A DNA stretch of 64,000 bases from Hoeflea ulvae (GTDB lineage Bacteria > Pseudomonadota > Alphaproteobacteria > Rhizobiales > Rhizobiaceae): assembly GCF_026619435.1 (NCBI RefSeq), contig NZ_JAOVZQ010000001.1, forward strand, positions 751,501 through 815,500. Reading direction: 5' to 3'. Under the pieces are notes generated by a model. That model searched no databases, was not told the origin of the DNA, and saw nothing but the letters and a program-made list of their open reading frames with translations. The position numbers and the translations under genes were made by a program. This document shows, one piece after another, positions 21,092 through 31,980 of the stretch (the first letter of the stretch is position 1; each line of letters starts with the position of its first letter).

Positions 21092-21808
21092 TCAGTTCAT
21101 CTTGCCGATCAGCCGCTCATACTCGCGTTCGGGCGTGCCATAGGCGTCGCGGGCAAAGGATTCCAGCGCCTGCCGGTCGCGCACGATGATCAGCCCGCGC
21201 TCGGCCCGGATCAGCAGATTGCCTTCCAGCACATGCAGCGCCGTGGTCACCGATGGCCGCCGCACCGCCAGCATGATCGACAGGAATTCATGGGTCAGCG
21301 AAATGTCGTTGCCGTCGGTGCGGTCGTGGCACATCAGGATCCAGCGGGCCAGCCGCTCGTCGATCTGATGCACCGCATTGGACAGCGCCGTATAGGCCGA
21401 CTGCACCGCCTGGGCCTGCGCGTAGCGGCCCATCAGCGTCTTGAGCGTATTGCTCTCGTCAATCGCCGCCACAAGCGCGGCGCTGCGGATCCGGTAGGCG
21501 CTGCCGGCCACCTGCATGAAGGTCGAAAAGGGGTCGGTATCCGCCTTCAGCGCGGTCGCGATCGGGGTCATGCCCTCGCGGCCGAAAATGCCGATCTCGG
21601 CGCTGTGGCCCTCCGGCGACGGCGCCACGATCGAGCCGATGCCCGATTCGAGGAAATAGCTGTATTCGGCGAGCATATTGGGCTGCGAGAAGGCATGGCG
21701 CCAGGGCAGCTCGACAAATTCCAGATGCGGCGCAATGCGCGCGAAATCCTCCGCCGAAACATGCGCCAGAAGTCTGTTGCGAACCTGGGTTTGCTGGATT
21801 TGGGGCAA
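21092..21808 (-). CDS. Crp/Fnr-family transcriptional regulator
   Basis: A 238-residue regulator with an N-terminal cyclic-nucleotide-binding-like beta barrel (QVRNRLLAHVSAEDFARIAPHLEFVELPWR...GEGM-type GREGMTPIATAL) and a C-terminal helix-turn-helix (LTHEFLSIMLAVRRPSVTTALHVLEGNLLI). The FNR-type cysteine cluster is absent. The TTG start at 21808 is preferred because GAGG lies 7 bases upstream and the protein then begins right at the family N-terminus; an ATG 31 codons upstream would add a basic tail running into the divergent intergenic region. It is divergent from a lone receiver gene, a pairing worth noting. Confidence 0.8.
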   Translation of the reverse strand: MPQIQQTQVRNRLLAHVSAEDFARIAPHLEFVELPWRHAFSQPNMLAEYSYFLESGIGSIVAPSPEGHSAEIGIFGREGMTPIATALKADTDPFSTFMQVAGSAYRIRSAALVAAIDESNTLKTLMGRYAQAQAVQSAYTALSNAVHQIDERLARWILMCHDRTDGNDISLTHEFLSIMLAVRRPSVTTALHVLEGNLLIRAERGLIIVRDRQALESFARDAYGTPEREYERLIGKMN

Positions 21809-22016
21809 TGCTCGTCCTCGTGAGGAAAGAGCAAAGGTGACTCCCAAGCGCGCGCAGAATAGCGAGCGATGACGTCGACCTACTCTCAAAAGATGTCCCA
21901 TTTATGGTGATAAAAAACTCGGTACAACCCACGGGCGCCCCTTGGTACGGCAGCGGACCGAAATCCTGCCGATGCGGAATAAGCGTAGGATATCCGTGTT
22001 TTAAACCCGAGACACG

Positions 22017-22412
22017 ATGATGCATCACCACACGGGTCCGATCCTGATCCTGGAAGACCAGCCGCTGATCGCGCTCGACCTCGAGCAGCAGCTTGCGGCC
22101 GCGGGTTTCGACAACCTGACGCTGCTGACCTCCGGGGCCCAGGCCGAGGCCTGGCTCGGGCTGCACCGGCCCGATGCAGCGATCATCGACATCGCCCTGT
22201 GCGATGGTGACTGCACCGATGTCGCCCGCACCCTCCTGGTCCGCACCATCCCCTTCATCGTCCATTCCGGCAGCCCCGGGGATGGCGCCGATCCGGTGTT
22301 CGGACACGGCCGCTGGGTCGGCAAGCCGGCCCGTCCCGGCTATCTGGTCACCGAGCTGCAGATCGCGCTTGCCGCCTCCTGCGCCGCCCGCGTCGATTGC
22401 GACGGCAACTGA
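22017..22412 (+). CDS. Stand-alone response regulator receiver (CheY-like)
   Basis: A 131-residue receiver domain with no output domain. The acidic pair is in ILILEDQPLIALDLEQQL, the phosphorylatable Asp in PDAAIIDIALCDGD, a Ser replaces the usual Thr in FIVHSGSP and the Lys is in WVGKPARPGYLVTELQIAL. The usual layout is kept, so phosphorylation is possible. No sensor kinase is adjacent; the hybrid kinase at 60.9-63.2 kb is a distant candidate only. It is divergent from the Crp/Fnr gene and has an N-terminal His-rich start (MMHHHTG). Confidence 0.88.
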   Translation: MMHHHTGPILILEDQPLIALDLEQQLAAAGFDNLTLLTSGAQAEAWLGLHRPDAAIIDIALCDGDCTDVARTLLVRTIPFIVHSGSPGDGADPVFGHGRWVGKPARPGYLVTELQIALAASCAARVDCDGN

Positions 22413-22577
22413 GCCACTGCAGTCGCACGCTTTTTTGCGGAACCGCGGCGGCTTGAGCGCGTTTCCTCCCTGATCCGCGATCCCGCCCCTTCGCCACCGC
22501 TCCGTTGCGACCGGCGGCAGGGCCCGCTTCGGATCTGCCTTTGAGACAGCATCCCACCCCAGCCAAGGCCTGACCCC

Positions 22578-24305
22578 GTGACCCCAGTTAAACTCGCCAT
22601 CATCGGCGCCGGCCCCACCACCGTCTATCTGCTCAAGCATCTGATCGGCCGCGGCCAAAAGCTCGACATCGCCATCTATGAGGCGAGCCCCGAGGCCGGC
22701 AAGGGCATGCCCTATCGCGAGGACATCAACGCCGATTACATGCTCTGCAACGCCTTCAGCCGCGAGATCCCCGAACTCACCCGCCAGCTGATCGACTGGC
22801 TCGAAACCCGCCCGAAATACGAGCTCAGCGAATGGGAGCTCTCCGAGCACGACATCAGCGCCCGCGCCTTCTACCCCCGCGTGCTGATCGGCGAATTTTT
22901 GCACGACGAGTTCCACGCGCTGATCGACCATGCCCGCGCCACAGGCCACAAGATCACCCTGCACACCTCCACCCCGGTCACCGACATCGATGTCACGGCC
23001 ACGCCGGGCCAGGCGCTGCTGCTCACCCGCGATGCCGCAGCCGACGCGCTGTTTGACGCCGTCATCATCGCCACCGGCCATTCCTGGCCAAAATCCCCGC
23101 ATATCGATCAGGCCGATCTGCTCTCGCCCTGGCCCGCCACCCGGCTCGAAAGCCTCGAGGCCGGGCATATCGGCATTTTAGGCTCGTCGCTCTCGGCCAT
23201 CGATGTCGTCGCAGCCCTTGGCCACGCCCACGGCACATTTGACGAATCCGGCGATCATGTCCGCTGGACCCCCAATGACGCGGCAAGCGGCTTGCGCATC
23301 ACCATGGTCTCGCGCATGGGCATCATGCCCGAGGGCGATTTCTACTATCCCTTCCCCTACCAGCCGCTCGCCTGCATCACCCAGGCCGCCGTCAGCCGCG
23401 AAATCGAGCGCGGCAGCGACGGCCTGCTCGCTCGCGTCTTTGATCTGCTCTGCCAGGAGCTCGATCACGCCGACCCCGCCTATCTCGAAAATCTCGGCCC
23501 CGAGGCCCGCACCATCCCCGGCTTCAGCCAGGCCTATTTCCGCCACCGCCAACAGCTTGGCGGGCTCGAGGCTGTCGAGCGCGATTTTGCCAAAACCCGG
23601 CAATCGATGCGCAAGCGCCAGACCATTGCCCACCGCTATGCGCTGCTGCGCGGCCACGAGAATTTCGACGCCATCCTGCGCCGTCTTGATGAGGCCGACT
23701 GGAAACTGTTTCACGACGAGCTGATGCCGGTCTTTGCCGATTGCTACGCCGCAGTGCCGCATCTCTCGCTCAGCCGCATCATCGCCCTGCACCAGGCAGG
23801 CATCCTCACCCTCGTCGCCACCGGCGACGACGCCACATTCGAAAACACTGGCGAAACCGCCCCCGCCCAGCCCGAAACCGCCTTCGGCGGCCCTGCTGGC
23901 GAGCCCGAAACTGCCCAAAACACCTCAGGCGTCACCCCCGCCAAATCTGAAACAGCCAAGGCCGCCGCCGCCACCAAAACACCCGACGCCAAAACGCCTG
24001 ACGCCATCCCCGGACCGGTAAAAGTCACAACCCCCGACGCCACCCATCATTTCGACATCATGATCGACGCCCGCGGCCAGCCCGCAGCCAGCCTCGACGA
24101 CCTGCCCTTCACCACCCTGACCCGGACGCTCACCCCCCAAACCCTGCGCGCCCCCTTCAGGCTCGACCTCGAAACCCAAAACCCCGCAAAGATCTACTGC
24201 CTCGCCATGCCCCAACTCCTCGACCGCCACCCGTTCGCGCAAGGGCTGGTCAATGTCGCGGAACTGGCGGAGGTGGTGGCTGGGGATGTCTGTGGGGAGG
24301 GGTGA
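22578..24305 (+). CDS. Large FAD/NAD(P)-binding oxidoreductase
   Basis: A 575-residue flavoprotein of the FAD-NAD(P)-binding type. The N-terminal Rossmann motif is VKLAIIGAGPTTVYLLKHLIG (GxGPxx), followed by EASPEAGKGMPYRED and, near residue 190, VIIATGHSWPKSP; a second dinucleotide element is HIGILGSSLSAIDVVAAL. A segment of about 60 residues near 425-485 is low-complexity and rich in Ala, Pro, Thr, Lys and Glu, and looks inserted between conserved parts. GTG is used as start. Reaction and substrate are unknown. Downstream DNA becomes AT-rich at once. Confidence 0.8.
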   Translation: MTPVKLAIIGAGPTTVYLLKHLIGRGQKLDIAIYEASPEAGKGMPYREDINADYMLCNAFSREIPELTRQLIDWLETRPKYELSEWELSEHDISARAFYPRVLIGEFLHDEFHALIDHARATGHKITLHTSTPVTDIDVTATPGQALLLTRDAAADALFDAVIIATGHSWPKSPHIDQADLLSPWPATRLESLEAGHIGILGSSLSAIDVVAALGHAHGTFDESGDHVRWTPNDAASGLRITMVSRMGIMPEGDFYYPFPYQPLACITQAAVSREIERGSDGLLARVFDLLCQELDHADPAYLENLGPEARTIPGFSQAYFRHRQQLGGLEAVERDFAKTRQSMRKRQTIAHRYALLRGHENFDAILRRLDEADWKLFHDELMPVFADCYAAVPHLSLSRIIALHQAGILTLVATGDDATFENTGETAPAQPETAFGGPAGEPETAQNTSGVTPAKSETAKAAAATKTPDAKTPDAIPGPVKVTTPDATHHFDIMIDARGQPAASLDDLPFTTLTRTLTPQTLRAPFRLDLETQNPAKIYCLAMPQLLDRHPFAQGLVNVAELAEVVAGDVCGEG

Positions 24306-24668
24306 GGGGGCTTTGGTTAAGTAACCCTGGGCGCGGAACGGTATTTGGCACCTTCTGATTAACGACAACAATGCGCTTCCGATTAGACCTTCAACTTTTT
24401 ACTAGGCAATTCTGAAAAGCAGTAATTCGATCAAAAAATTCGGGGATAACAGGAGGCAACCCTATTCGCATTCCTGGGAATTAATTGCGTTACTCTCCGG
24501 GTGCGTTTCAGGTGCCATACGAAAAAATTGAAATATAACTCATCAGGCGGCCGCTTTTGTATGCAAATCGGGATAGTTGTGTGCCCGTGAAAATAGCATT
24601 TTGTGTTTACATAATCGGATGGTTGCATGACAATGTTCTAAGACAGAATCAATGAGCGGGGACGATTT
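24306..24668. other. AT-rich leader of the Z1 island
   Basis: A 363-base stretch with no convincing gene, where composition switches from GC-rich to visibly AT-rich. It should hold the promoter of the Z1-methyltransferase operon; GGGGA lies about 8 bases before the Z1 start codon, but no clear -35/-10 pair was assigned. A possible 65-codon frame on the other strand (24431-24628) has no recognisable features. No tRNA or att-like repeat was spotted at this edge. Confidence 0.5.
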
Positions 24669-26507
24669 ATGGATTGGGCGTCGATTGTCGGTGATATCGG
24701 AGGACAGCAATATCAAAGCCGTCTCGAAAAACTTAACGCCAATAAGATTGATACTCGTTCAATTGAAGATACCGTTGAGAAGACTATCACGAACCTTCAG
24801 ACAAGCGGATGTCGCTCTTTTGTAGTCTTCGGCGAGCCGCAAAGTGGCAAGACCGAAATGATGATTGCGCTGAACGCGCGCTTGTTGGACGAGGGTGCGG
24901 GAGTAATTGTCAACCTTCTTACAGATAGCATTGATCTTCTTGATCAAAGCCTTTCACGCTTCCGAGCATCCGGCCTAAGCCCGTCGCCAAAGCAATTTAG
25001 TGAGCTTCCGCATAATGCGAAGGATCTTGGGAAGAAGAAATGGGTCATTTTCTCAAAGAAGAACGCACGGGATCTTGAGAAATTAATTACACTTCTTCGT
25101 GCGCGGAATGATATAATCGTTATTGATGACGAGGCGGACTTCGCTTCTCCAAATGCAAAAATTAACAATAACGATAAGACAACAATTAACCGCCTTATTC
25201 ATGATCTCATTGGTAAAGAAGGTCAATATATTGGAGTTACTGCAACGCCTGCTCGCCTAAATTTAAATAACACATTCGAGAATGACAGTGAGTTGTGGGT
25301 AGATTTTCTTCCGCATCCTTATTACGTAGGTCAAGATTACTTCTTTCCAACGGATGGACTGGTGAGTTATCGGTTGCATACATTTAACGCTCATGAAGGA
25401 TCAGAGCGATCTGAACTGAAAAACGCAATCCTCCATTTTCTCTGCGGTGTCGCTGAGCAACACCAACGGGGACATAACCAAAATTTCACTATGCTTGTCC
25501 ACGCCAGCGGTAAAAAGGACGAACACGAGAACGACATTGGTGTAATTGAAAAAACAATTAACACATTGGCGGACCCCAACCATTCTGGTTTTAAGAATAT
25601 CGTTGCAAAACTCGAAAAGATAGCTCCTGAATACTCGGCGACTCATCCAAAGTTGATCGTAGAGTTTGTCTTGCGAAATATCGACCGTCACGCGATTATA
25701 GAGATCAACTCCAAGGGAAGGAGCGGAAAGGTATCGGATATCGCGAAGCCAACAAGCCTTTTTTCTTTCGGCGCAGGAGGCAATATTATTTCTAGGGGAG
25801 TCACGTTTGACAATCTCCTATCTATGTATTTTACGCGCGCTGTTAAAGGTAAATTCTCTCAAGATACTTATATTCAACGGGCTCGGATGTTCGGTTCGCG
25901 TGAAGATTATAAGGAATACTTCCAGCTTTGGATTCCAGATGAGCTTCTTGCAAATTGGAGCAAATGTTTCGCGTTCCACAAACTGGCAATTCAGGCGATG
26001 AGAAGCAAGGCTGGGGCGCCAGTCTGGTTGGCCGATCACAAAACGACACCAACTGCAGCAAACTCCATCGACAAATCTACTGTGGATTTCGAAGGTGGAG
26101 AAATGTCTTTTGGGCTCTTCGCTTTTGACAAATCGAAATACGACGACTTGATGGGAAGGAACGGCAGGACTAACGAAGTGATGCTGGACGCTATCCGCGC
26201 CGAGATGGGAGAAAGCGAATTCCCAGATTATTTATTCGATTACCTGAGACACGACTTGAAAGCTGCCCGAGCCTCGATATCCTTTCATCCGTCTAGCGGC
26301 TTTGGTGTTGCAGCGAAAACCTACACGAACGAAGAGATCGAAAGTATCCGCCGTAAGAAAGGTATATTCGCGACGAACGAATTTGGTCGAAGCGAAATCC
26401 CCACGGCAAAACACCACCTCAAAATTTTCACAAATAATCGTGGCAAAGCCCGCTTGTTTTACAAAATCAACGGGAATGCCGTAAAATTCGTTCAAAATAA
26501 AAAATGA
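24669..26507 (+). CDS. Z1-domain superfamily 2 helicase-like ATPase
   Basis: A 612-residue protein. Walker A is GEPQSGKT (55-62), Walker B is VIDDEAD (151-157), and motif III-like TATPAR follows at 191-196, all as in SF2 helicases. The Z1 signature lies at about 371-415: GGNIISRGVTFDNLLSMYFTR then QDTYIQRARMFGSREDY, with conserved glycine, Arg finger candidates and RARMFG. Z1 domains are known from restriction-modification-like and MutL/HSP90-type ATPase defence operons. The C-terminal 180 residues have no recognised domain. It is the first gene of a three-gene operon; its stop overlaps the next start by 4 bases. Codon use is AT-rich, unlike neighbours, indicating transfer. Confidence 0.88.
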   Translation: MDWASIVGDIGGQQYQSRLEKLNANKIDTRSIEDTVEKTITNLQTSGCRSFVVFGEPQSGKTEMMIALNARLLDEGAGVIVNLLTDSIDLLDQSLSRFRASGLSPSPKQFSELPHNAKDLGKKKWVIFSKKNARDLEKLITLLRARNDIIVIDDEADFASPNAKINNNDKTTINRLIHDLIGKEGQYIGVTATPARLNLNNTFENDSELWVDFLPHPYYVGQDYFFPTDGLVSYRLHTFNAHEGSERSELKNAILHFLCGVAEQHQRGHNQNFTMLVHASGKKDEHENDIGVIEKTINTLADPNHSGFKNIVAKLEKIAPEYSATHPKLIVEFVLRNIDRHAIIEINSKGRSGKVSDIAKPTSLFSFGAGGNIISRGVTFDNLLSMYFTRAVKGKFSQDTYIQRARMFGSREDYKEYFQLWIPDELLANWSKCFAFHKLAIQAMRSKAGAPVWLADHKTTPTAANSIDKSTVDFEGGEMSFGLFAFDKSKYDDLMGRNGRTNEVMLDAIRAEMGESEFPDYLFDYLRHDLKAARASISFHPSSGFGVAAKTYTNEEIESIRRKKGIFATNEFGRSEIPTAKHHLKIFTNNRGKARLFYKINGNAVKFVQNKK

Positions 26508-26968
26508 TTACCGACGCGTCTAGATATTACGGGTGCGTGCTGCACGTGATAACTGATTGGAGTCAGGAGCACGTCAGTGTCCAAAGATTGTTCACCGACA
26601 CGCCTGGGTTCTATCTAGTGAATCATGCGTTGCCTCTCTATGTGAAGTACTCGACAAGCCGGAAAGGGCCATGGGCGTTTAATTTTCACGCTGGGCACCA
26701 AGAATCCCAGAAAAAGCTTTTTTCTGAGTATGGTGAATGTGTCACTGCATTTGTATGCGGCCGTGACGGGATTGCTGCATTGCCGTATACGGAAATGCGG
26801 AAGGTGCTTGACGAAAATTTCGAACTTCAAGAGGGTGTTTCGATACGTCGGCGTCACAATCAAATGTACCAGATAAAGGGACATGATGGAACGCTTGATA
26901 GACGCGTATCCAGAAACAGCCTACCGGAAATACTAAATAGCCACATAGAAAAGTTTGTAAGTCGATGA
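26504..26968 (+). CDS. Unknown 154-residue protein inside the Z1-methyltransferase operon
   Basis: No family could be named. Visible: a short hydrophobic strand GFYLVNHALPLYVKYSTSRKG followed by PWAFNF (residues about 36-61), then FVCGRDGIAALPYTEMRKVL (about 83-103), and a basic C-terminal part (SIRRRHNQMYQIKG, DRRVSRNSLPEIL). The strand-Lys-strand layout with aromatic PW recalls small nuclease or DNA-end-binding folds, but no full PD-(D/E)XK or HNH set is visible. It overlaps both neighbours by 4 bases (ATGA on each side), so it must function with them; a nuclease or specificity role is the natural guess. Confidence 0.75.
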   Translation: MITDASRYYGCVLHVITDWSQEHVSVQRLFTDTPGFYLVNHALPLYVKYSTSRKGPWAFNFHAGHQESQKKLFSEYGECVTAFVCGRDGIAALPYTEMRKVLDENFELQEGVSIRRRHNQMYQIKGHDGTLDRRVSRNSLPEILNSHIEKFVSR

Positions 26969-28149
26969 AGCATATTCACCCTTTCCCGGCACGTATGGCG
27001 CCAGAAATTGCTCTCTACAAGATTCAAATGATGTCACCCGGTGACACAATTTTGGATCCAATGGCTGGCTCGGGCATGGTGTTGTCCCAAGCTGCTCGAA
27101 ATGGTGTCAGAGCCGTTGGTATAGATATGGACCCGCTTGCCGAACTTATTGCGAGGGTTGGGGCTACACCGGTCAATGAAAAAGAGGTGACAAGTGCACT
27201 GGAAATGCTTCTGGAAGAATGCTCGAGAACCAGCGACACCGTTTGCCTACCATGGATGGACGAGCACCAAGAAACTTCGGACTTTGCAGAATTCTGGTTT
27301 GCTCCGATGCAGCGCAGGCAACTACGGAAGCTTTCGTTTAACCTCATCGTGAATCCAATTCCAGTTTCCGCGCATGTCGCCGATATTTTAAAGGTCGCCC
27401 TGTCGAGATTGATAGTAACAAAGGAACCCAAGGCATCCTTAGCAAGAGATACGGCTCATAGTCGTCCACATAGAACAATCATAGAAAATAGCTTTGATAT
27501 ATTGGCGGCACTGCCGGCGTCGCTTGCTCACATTCTTAGTGCTCTTGATGCCGATGGTATCGAAGTTCCCGCCCAAACGCACCTCGGTGATGCAAGAAAT
27601 CTTACCGTCGTTGAAAATGACTCGATCGACTGTATCGTTACATCTCCTCCGTATTTAAATGCCATCGATTACATGCGTGGACATCGATTGTCGCTTGTTT
27701 GGTTAGGTTATGACCTGGTGAGGTTGCGAAGTATTCGATCAACATCAATTGGTGCAGAAAGAGCTCTCAATGTCAGTTTAGCTACGGATTTTGATGTATT
27801 ACTAGCACAGCTGGGATTAGCCGAGCTAAATCTAAAAAATAAAAGGATGTTGGATAGATACTTCGTTGATCTGACCGCTCAGACTAAAGAGGCGTATCGA
27901 GTTTTAAAACCCGGAGCAATCGGGACCTATGTAATCGGAAATTCAACGATACGCGGGACATACGTCCAAAATAGTGAGCTATTGAAGCGGGCAGCGATGT
28001 TGGCGGGTTTCATTGTCGTCAACGAGACAGAACGAGAAATCCCTAACCACCGAAGGTATATGCCCATGTTTGGGCAGGCCGGAAACAGCCTTGCAAGCCG
28101 TATGCGAACGGAACATGTCGTCGATTTTCAGAAGCCAAAAGTTCAATAG
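26965..28149 (+). CDS. Site-specific DNA methyltransferase (N6-adenine or N4-cytosine)
   Basis: A 394-residue amino-methyltransferase. The N-terminus HIHPFPARMAPEIA is motif X-like, directly followed by SAM motif I DPMAGSGMVL (31-40) and VGIDMDPLAE (motif II/III). The catalytic motif IV is TSPPYLNAIDYMRGHR (TSPPY 226-230). The order X-I then IV, about 190 residues apart, leaves room for a target-recognition region in between, a non-beta layout. TSPPY occurs in both N4-cytosine and N6-adenine enzymes, so the base is undecided. It is the last gene of the operon and supplies the modification half of a probable restriction-like system. Confidence 0.9.
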   Translation: MKHIHPFPARMAPEIALYKIQMMSPGDTILDPMAGSGMVLSQAARNGVRAVGIDMDPLAELIARVGATPVNEKEVTSALEMLLEECSRTSDTVCLPWMDEHQETSDFAEFWFAPMQRRQLRKLSFNLIVNPIPVSAHVADILKVALSRLIVTKEPKASLARDTAHSRPHRTIIENSFDILAALPASLAHILSALDADGIEVPAQTHLGDARNLTVVENDSIDCIVTSPPYLNAIDYMRGHRLSLVWLGYDLVRLRSIRSTSIGAERALNVSLATDFDVLLAQLGLAELNLKNKRMLDRYFVDLTAQTKEAYRVLKPGAIGTYVIGNSTIRGTYVQNSELLKRAAMLAGFIVVNETEREIPNHRRYMPMFGQAGNSLASRMRTEHVVDFQKPKVQ

Positions 28150-29107
28150 AAAATATGGGCAGTTTATCCAGAAGTTTTCCCCGAAGGCGAAGTTTCCAAG
28201 GCCTTCAAGCGATAGGTCACCCCTCCTACGCGATCAGTAAATGGTATTCATCGATCAAAGCCAATTTACCTGTCTCGATGTAGAATTCCACAAAAATAAA
28301 GCTTGAAGCGGACAGACCACTATCGGCCGCACCTTAGTTTCTTATCGAAGACGGAGCAAAAGGCGCGTTCTCCCAATATGGACATTTGCCGCAGAATTCC
28401 AATTAATCAATAAGGTCTGGAGGTTGTGCGGTCCCTCCATAAGGCCCCCCAAAATATCCCCCAAAATTTCCACACCCTTTGCCCCCATGCGATACTTCCT
28501 CCACCTTCCGTTCACACGGATGGCCGGGGCCTACGGAACCCTGGTTGGCGGAAGGCGGTGAGTTTTGCGGCGCGGAGCCGAATCGCGTTGGCAAAAGCTT
28601 GCGGAGGAAACACCCCGGCGGGCGTTTTGGCGGGGCAGATCACAGGGATCTGCACGTTGAACCGCACAGACCCACCGCCGGAACCGGAGCCTGCTGGTCC
28701 GCGCCAGCACCGGCGGCGTCAGCTTTGACGCCGGTCCTGACAAGGCCTGAATGCGCTGGACGGTATTGAGACCGGGAGCGGTTCGGGCACAGGCGGGTTC
28801 GGTCGCCGGTACGGCCGAACACAACGAAACCGCCAGGGACTGTCGTGAGACCTTCGTCATTCGGATGCCCGCCCGTGCCCGGAAGGCAGGGGCGCCATCA
28901 CTGGCGGGGCGCGGGCGACTGCGCCAAACCACCACCTCTTTCTCACGGGCCTGTCGCCCGTGCCCCGCAATCCGGATGTTTTCAACCCGGATGCCAGACA
29001 CTCCCAAACCCTCGGCGGCACCAGGCCGCGCGCGGACTTTTCGGCGTGTCTGCTCGTCAGCGGAGCCGCGGCCCAGCCGCCCCGGGCCGGCTCAGCCGGT
29101 CAGCCGC
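28150..29107. other. Non-coding stretch after the Z1 island
   Basis: About 960 bases with no convincing gene on either strand. The first 250 bases keep the AT-rich character of the island, with runs such as CCCCCCAAAATATCCCCC near 28445; from about 28490 the DNA is GC-rich like the backbone. Frames longer than 100 codons here are overlapping GC-rich artefacts without domains. The border between the two compositions at about 28440-28490 probably marks the island end. No tRNA was seen. Confidence 0.5.
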
Positions 29108-29404
29108 TCAGGCCAGTTCAATGCGCAAGGTGCGCCCCACGGCGCTGGCCGCGCGCCGCAGCGTATCCAGCGTTACCGACGAGCTTGCCGGGTCAAGCAG
29201 ACGGTCAAGCTGGCGACGGCTGGTTTTCATCCGCGCCGCCATCGCGGTCTTGCTGATGCCCTGCTCTTTCATCGCTTCCGCCAGCTGGCCAGCGATGATC
29301 TCCTTGATGGCGCGGTCTTCGCAGTCCTCAAGCATGCCCTGGCTGGAAAGGAATTCGTCAAATGTCTCCTCGCTCACACCACTCTTCTCGCTGTCTTGCA
29401 TCAT
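29108..29404 (-). CDS. HigA-like XRE antitoxin
   Basis: A 98-residue antitoxin in the reversed (toxin first) HigBA order. The C-terminal two-thirds carry the helix-turn-helix: LAEAMKEQGISKTAMAARMKTSRRQLDRLLDPASSSVTLDTLRRAASAVG. The N-terminal acidic tail (SEETFDEFLSSQG) may contact the toxin. Its start lies inside the toxin stop (ATGA), ensuring linked translation. It would bind the palindrome GTGCCA-ATTA-TGGCAC upstream of the toxin gene. Confidence 0.88.
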   Translation of the reverse strand: MMQDSEKSGVSEETFDEFLSSQGMLEDCEDRAIKEIIAGQLAEAMKEQGISKTAMAARMKTSRRQLDRLLDPASSSVTLDTLRRAASAVGRTLRIELA

Positions 29405-29748
29405 TCAATCTCCTTCATGCGGCTGCGGGCAAGGTCGATATCCGGTTTCGGCGTCTTTTGGGTTTTCTTGATGAAACCGTGCAGCAGGATCATCTCGCTT
29501 TCGCGCATGCAAAAGATCACCCGCGCAATGCGATTGCTCTTAAGGCTGCTGCGCACTTCCCACAGCGCCTGGCCCAGCGGCGCGCAATGCGGCCGTCCCA
29601 ACGGCCAGCCGAATTCCACCTTCTGGATGTCCTTGCCAATCGTGCGCCGGTCATCGGTGCCGAGTTCGAGCAGCCAGTCACGTACCGGATGGCGCCCCGC
29701 TGCCGATTGGTAAAACCGGGCAGCAAGCTTCTTTGACCGATCCATCAT
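29401..29748 (-). CDS. HigB-like (Gp49/RelE-superfamily) toxin
   Basis: A 115-residue toxin of the phage-derived Gp49/HigB family: FYQSAAGRHPVRDWLLELGTDDRRTIGKDIQKVEFGWPLGRPHC then LWEVRSSLKSNRIARVIFCM and MILLHGFIKKTQKTPKPDIDLARSRM. RelE-fold toxins of this kind cut mRNA on the ribosome; the basic residues LWEVRSS, RIARVIF and GFIKKTQKTP are the usual active-site and RNA-binding positions. The next gene is its antitoxin, overlapping by 4 bases. Predicted transcription start is within about 5 bases of the ATG and no ribosome-binding site is visible, so the message may be leaderless. Confidence 0.9.
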   Translation of the reverse strand: MMDRSKKLAARFYQSAAGRHPVRDWLLELGTDDRRTIGKDIQKVEFGWPLGRPHCAPLGQALWEVRSSLKSNRIARVIFCMRESEMILLHGFIKKTQKTPKPDIDLARSRMKEIE

Positions 29749-29801: not shown

Positions 29802-31392
29802 TCAGGCCGCCTTGGCGACGTGATATTCCTTGATCGCCACCATGTCGATCTGCTTCCAGCGGTCCGATTCATAGCCGAGCGAGAACTGGTCGGCGGCCAG
29901 GAACACCGGGTCGCCGTCGAGATCGCGGGCGATGTCGCCGCGATGGCTGGTGACAAAGCGGTCGAGCTCGGTCCTGTCGGCGGCGGAAATCCAGCGGCAG
30001 ACCGAAAACCGCGCCATTTCGAAACTCACCGGCAGGCCATATTCGGCCGACAACCGTTCCTTCAGCACGTCGAGCTGCAGCGCGCCGACCACGCCGACAA
30101 TCGCCGGCGATCCATCCTCGGGCGAAAACAGCTGCACCACGCCTTCCTCGGCCATCTGCTGCAGCGCCTCCTTCAGCTTTTTGGCCTTCATCGCATCCTC
30201 GAGCCTGACCCGGCGCAGGATTTCCGGCGCAAAGTTCGGCACCCCCTGGAACACCAGCGCCTCGCCCTCGGTCAGCGTGTCGCCGATCCGAAGCGTGCCG
30301 TGATTGGGAATGCCGACCACGTCGCCGGCATAGGCCGTGTCGGCAATCTGCCGCTGCGAGGCAAAGAAGAATTGTGGCGCCGACAGGCTCAGCGGCTTGC
30401 CGGTGCGCGCCAGCCGCGCCTTCATGCCGCGCTCCAGCGTGCCCGAACAGACCCGCACGAAGGCGATCCGGTCGCGGTGATTGGGGTCCATGTTTGCACT
30501 GGATCTTGAACACAAACGCCGTCATTTTCGGGTCGGTCGCTTCCACCGTCCGGGTGTCGGCAACTTGCGCCCGGGGCGGCGGCGCCAGCTCGCCCAGCGC
30601 ATTGATCAGGTCGCGCACGCCGAAATTTTTGAGAGCCGAGCCGAAATAGACCGGCGTCAGATGCCCTTCGCGAAAGCTTTCCAGATCAAACGGTTTGCAG
30701 GCCTCCACCGCCAGGCTCGCCTCCTCGATGAAGGTGGCTCGCTCGTTCTCCGGCAGCAGCCCTGCCACCTGGTCCGATTCCGGCCCGTTCACCGGCGTCA
30801 GCCCGGTCTCGCTGTCGGATTTGCGGATCGCCGATTTCGCCAGATGATAGGTGCCCGAAAACGACCGCCCCTGACCGATCGGCCAGGTCATCGGCGCGCA
30901 ATCGAGCGCCAGCTTCTGCTCGACCTCGTCCAGGAGCTCGAACGGGTTGAGCGCCTCGCGGTCCATCTTGTTGATGAAGGTGATGATTGGGATGTCGCGG
31001 AGCCGGCAGACCTCGAACAGCTTCAGCGTCCGCGGCTCGATGCCCTTGGCCGCGTCGATCACCATCACCGCCGCGTCCACCGCCGTCAGCGTCCGGTATG
31101 TATCATCGGCAAAGTCCTCATGCCCCGGCGTATCCAGCAGATTGAACACATGCCCGCCATACTCGAAGGTCATCACCGAGGTGACCACCGAGATGCCGCG
31201 CTCGCGCTCGATCTTCATCCAGTCCGACCGGGTCTGGATCCGGTCTTTCTTGGCCTTCACCTCGCCGGCCAGTTGGATCGCGCCGCCGAACAGCAAAAGT
31301 TTTTCGGTCAGCGTCGTCTTGCCGGCGTCCGGGTGCGAGATGATGGCGAAGGTGCGACGGCGGCCGACCTCCTCGGCAAGTGTATCGGGCAT
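29802..31392 (-). pseudogene. prfC: Peptide chain release factor 3, frameshifted
   Basis: RF3 is a GTPase that recycles RF1/RF2 from the ribosome after termination. The N-terminal GTPase part is intact: SHPDAGKTTLTEKL (G1), DTPGHEDFADDTYRTL (G3), TFINKMDREALNPFEL (G4). Within FVFKIQ the frame is broken by one extra base at about 30498: CAGTGCAAACATG reads into the wrong frame, whereas CAG-GCA-AAC-ATG-GAC would continue as ANMDPNHRDRIAFVRVCSG, found in the adjacent frame through to the stop. Span minus one base gives 529 residues, normal RF3 length. Either a real mutation (RF3 is dispensable in many bacteria) or a sequencing error. Start MPDTLAEEVGRRRTFAI is standard. Confidence 0.85.
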
Positions 31393-31485
31393 CGGTGGCG
31401 AATTCCTGTTGATGGCGCTGCCTTCTAACCGCTTGCCGCCCGCCATGCAATTGACCTTGGCCCGCCAAGGGTAAAAGCTCGCGCC

Positions 31486-31980
31486 ATGACCCAGCCCGTT
31501 TCCCCGTCCCGGCCCGTCCCGGAGTCCACCCCGGAGCTCAGGATTGTCCGCCTGCCGCATGGAGAAGGCCTCGATCTGCCGGCCTATGAAACCCCGGGGT
31601 CCGCCGGCATGGATTTGCGCGCCGCCGTCGAAGACAATGCCCCGCTGACGCTTGCACCCGGCGGTCGTTTTGCGGTGCCCACCGGCCTGGTCATGGAAAT
31701 CCCCTTTGGCTTTGAAGGCCAGGTCCGGCCGCGCTCCGGGCTGGCGCTCAAATCCGGCATCACCTGCCTCAACACCCCCGGCACCATCGACAGCGACTAC
31801 CGCGGCGAGGTCAAGGTGATCCTCGCCAATCTCGGCGCCGAGCCCTTCACCGTCAGCCGCGGCATGCGCATCGCCCAGCTGGTCATCGCCCCGGTGGTGC
31901 AGGCCCGGTTGGTTCTCGAAGACACGCTCAGCCAGACCGCCCGCGGCGCCGGCGGTTTCGGTTCAACCGGCGCGTTATGA
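31486..31980 (+). CDS. dut: dUTP diphosphatase (dUTPase)
   Basis: A 164-residue trimeric dUTPase converting dUTP to dUMP and pyrophosphate. All five motifs are visible: AGMDLRAAV (1), [10 protein letters not shown] (2), [13 protein letters not shown] (3), [12 protein letters not shown] (4) and the flexible [10 protein letters not shown] tail (5). The N-terminal 20 residues ([14 protein letters not shown]) are a non-conserved extension before [13 protein letters not shown], so an internal start is possible. It overlaps the next gene by 4 bases. Confidence 0.95.

Follow-up and report, generated by a model that had tools for sequence, protein, structure and literature searches.

A three-gene cassette in a 64,000-nucleotide stretch of the Hoeflea ulvae contig NZ_JAOVZQ010000001.1 (hereafter the window) probably encodes an ATP-dependent restriction–modification system resembling the NgoAVII and CglI systems, with their R subunit, which has a PLD nuclease and a B3-like domain, replaced by a small protein. 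The cassette, entirely on the + strand, consists of open reading frame (ORF) 1 (24669..26507), the gene for the 154-residue small protein (26504..26968) and that for a 394-residue methyltransferase (26965..28149), coupled through two ATGA overlaps (26504..26507 and 26965..26968). Re-reading the sequence confirmed the three ORFs, ATG starts and overlaps given in a preliminary description, as well as its AT-rich island (GC content 0.459 in the cassette versus 0.634 in 12 kb of flank). Its wider interpretation, that a motor, a small effector and a modification enzyme act as a single complex, is partly supported: the coupling stands, and the complex itself is inferred.

The product of ORF 1 matches Helicase_II (PADLOC PDLC03202; 3.9e-45), a marker of NgoAVII/CglI systems, and hhalign (99.9% across 447 columns) lends this match further support. 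The methyltransferase matches Pfam N6_N4_Mtase (PF01555) in two stretches (4.3e-11) and phrog_18146 (1.2e-32). Its motifs run in the order X (HPFPARMAPE), I (DPMAGSGMV) and IV (TSPPY, 27640–27654), and DPMxGSGMV and TSPPY are identical across four aligned methyltransferases of such trios. Combining S-adenosylmethionine motif I with a (D/N/S)PP(Y/F) motif IV, as amino-methyltransferases do, it qualifies as a DNA amino-methyltransferase, of either the N6-adenine or the N4-cytosine kind. Methyltransferases of two classes occur among the loci, with a C5-cytosine enzyme only in the relative L073.

Relatives of the window's methyltransferase also occur in other settings. On Roseibium and Methylobacterium plasmids (L010 5866–9592 and L011 5881–9622), an operon combines such an amino-methyltransferase with a second methyltransferase and an annotated PLD-domain protein, possibly another restriction set. 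Elsewhere, relatives adjoin histidine-kinase/HSP90-like ATPases, annotated as such at L009 (2272–7185) and called by eye at L065 (1580–6535) and L067 (3371–7140); a second methyltransferase is also present at L009 and L065.

The small protein had been described as unrecognised, and indeed it has no match in Pfam, NCBIfam or PADLOC, nor did its family profile match any PDB sequence at an E value of 10. Its predicted fold nevertheless has the PD-(D/E)XK core, as do the comparison structures I-Ssp6803I, Hjc, RecU, PvuII and the SPARDA nuclease domain. K48, W57, F59, C85, D88, G89, R116 and G126 are invariant in all 107 family sequences. Moreover, K48, C85, D88 and Y122 are kept in each of the ten loci of known context, including ones only about 24–31% identical to the window, a retention that looks like that of a functional site. 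We read K48 as the motif lysine from strand order and sequence rather than from a residue-level structural alignment.

Two observations weigh against the small protein as the cutter. The PD-(D/E)XK motif calls for an acidic residue two positions ahead of its catalytic lysine; in this family position 46 is acidic in none of the 107 sequences, which is the weightiest evidence against cleavage. Positions 33–39 hold an acidic residue in a single sequence, at one position. In addition, some component has to read the DNA, and domain library searches of the three proteins matched no B3 domain in the cassette. Those searches matched no other nuclease there either, which speaks for the small protein as the cutter, as does the retained site. 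We put the odds that the small protein cuts DNA close to even.

Under the NgoAVII/CglI-like reading, the three products would form one complex that recognizes DNA and, by analogy, translocates it with the ATP-driven motor; the small protein would take the R-subunit role, including cleavage, and the cassette would serve anti-phage restriction. Homology, gene coupling, the predicted fold and the two methyltransferase classes speak for this reading. That the cassette instead pairs an orphan methyltransferase with a DNA-repair or plasmid-maintenance ATPase, and has no defence role, is unlikely.

The small-protein family is rare. Across overlapping genome sets, matches occurred in 2 of 297 genomes of the window's own family, 2 of 317 of its order, 3 of 385 of its class and 1 of 398 of its phylum, and in 1 of 86 and 2 of 69 genomes of the class of G985 and the family of G1271, respectively; six distinct genomes, including the window's own, account for these. 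Neighbouring genes vary between the loci inspected, as would be expected of a mobile unit: judged by eye, L073 has groEL-like and ABC-ATPase-like neighbours, and L007 has lepA-like and dtd-like ones. GC content lies at least 10 points below the flank in six of nine loci, with a smaller difference at L008, L003 and L004.

Comparison with the same-genus genome G046 (region L027) helps to delimit the probable insertion. Window positions 21096–24307 match L027 in three pieces by blastn; the collinear match stops at 24307 and restarts at 28352, and a second copy matches to 24376. The interval 24377..28351 (no strand assigned), unmatched in L027 but with matching flanks, probably shows how far the inserted cassette reaches; apart from the trio, no coding content was seen in the differing stretch. 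G046 has about 11 kb there, with TRAP-transporter and GGDEF/EAL genes. Repeats within 24300–28900 are only short pairs, ARAGORN found no tRNA in the window and an Rfam scan of 15000–40000 returned no matches.

Downstream, a helix-turn-helix and Gp49-like (HigA/HigB-type) toxin–antitoxin pair (29108–29748, − strand) is absent from the corresponding, otherwise contiguous G046 site (L027 4417/4429). A release-factor-3-like region (prfC, by eye; 29802–31560, − strand) is broken across two overlapping frames in the window and is a 547-residue open frame in G046, suggesting a pseudogene or a sequencing error.

As for known systems, the cassette does not qualify as MZA: of the MzaA–E set, its genes gave just one weak match, to MzaC, and MzaA–E matches lie elsewhere in the genome (L028). 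Nor do we file it as a member of the NgoAVII/CglI type, because the cassette shows neither a PLD–B3 R subunit nor a C5-cytosine methyltransferase. The R subunit is marked by RE_NgoFVII (PF09565) and PF20731, which a reference R at L012 matches at 3.1e-46 and 6.3e-46, whereas the only partner gene here is the unmatched small protein, and the methyltransferase is of the N6_N4_Mtase family. The cassette thus differs from that type in that the usual cutting and reading subunit is replaced by an unclassified small protein with a nuclease-like predicted fold that lacks the usual cutting residue.
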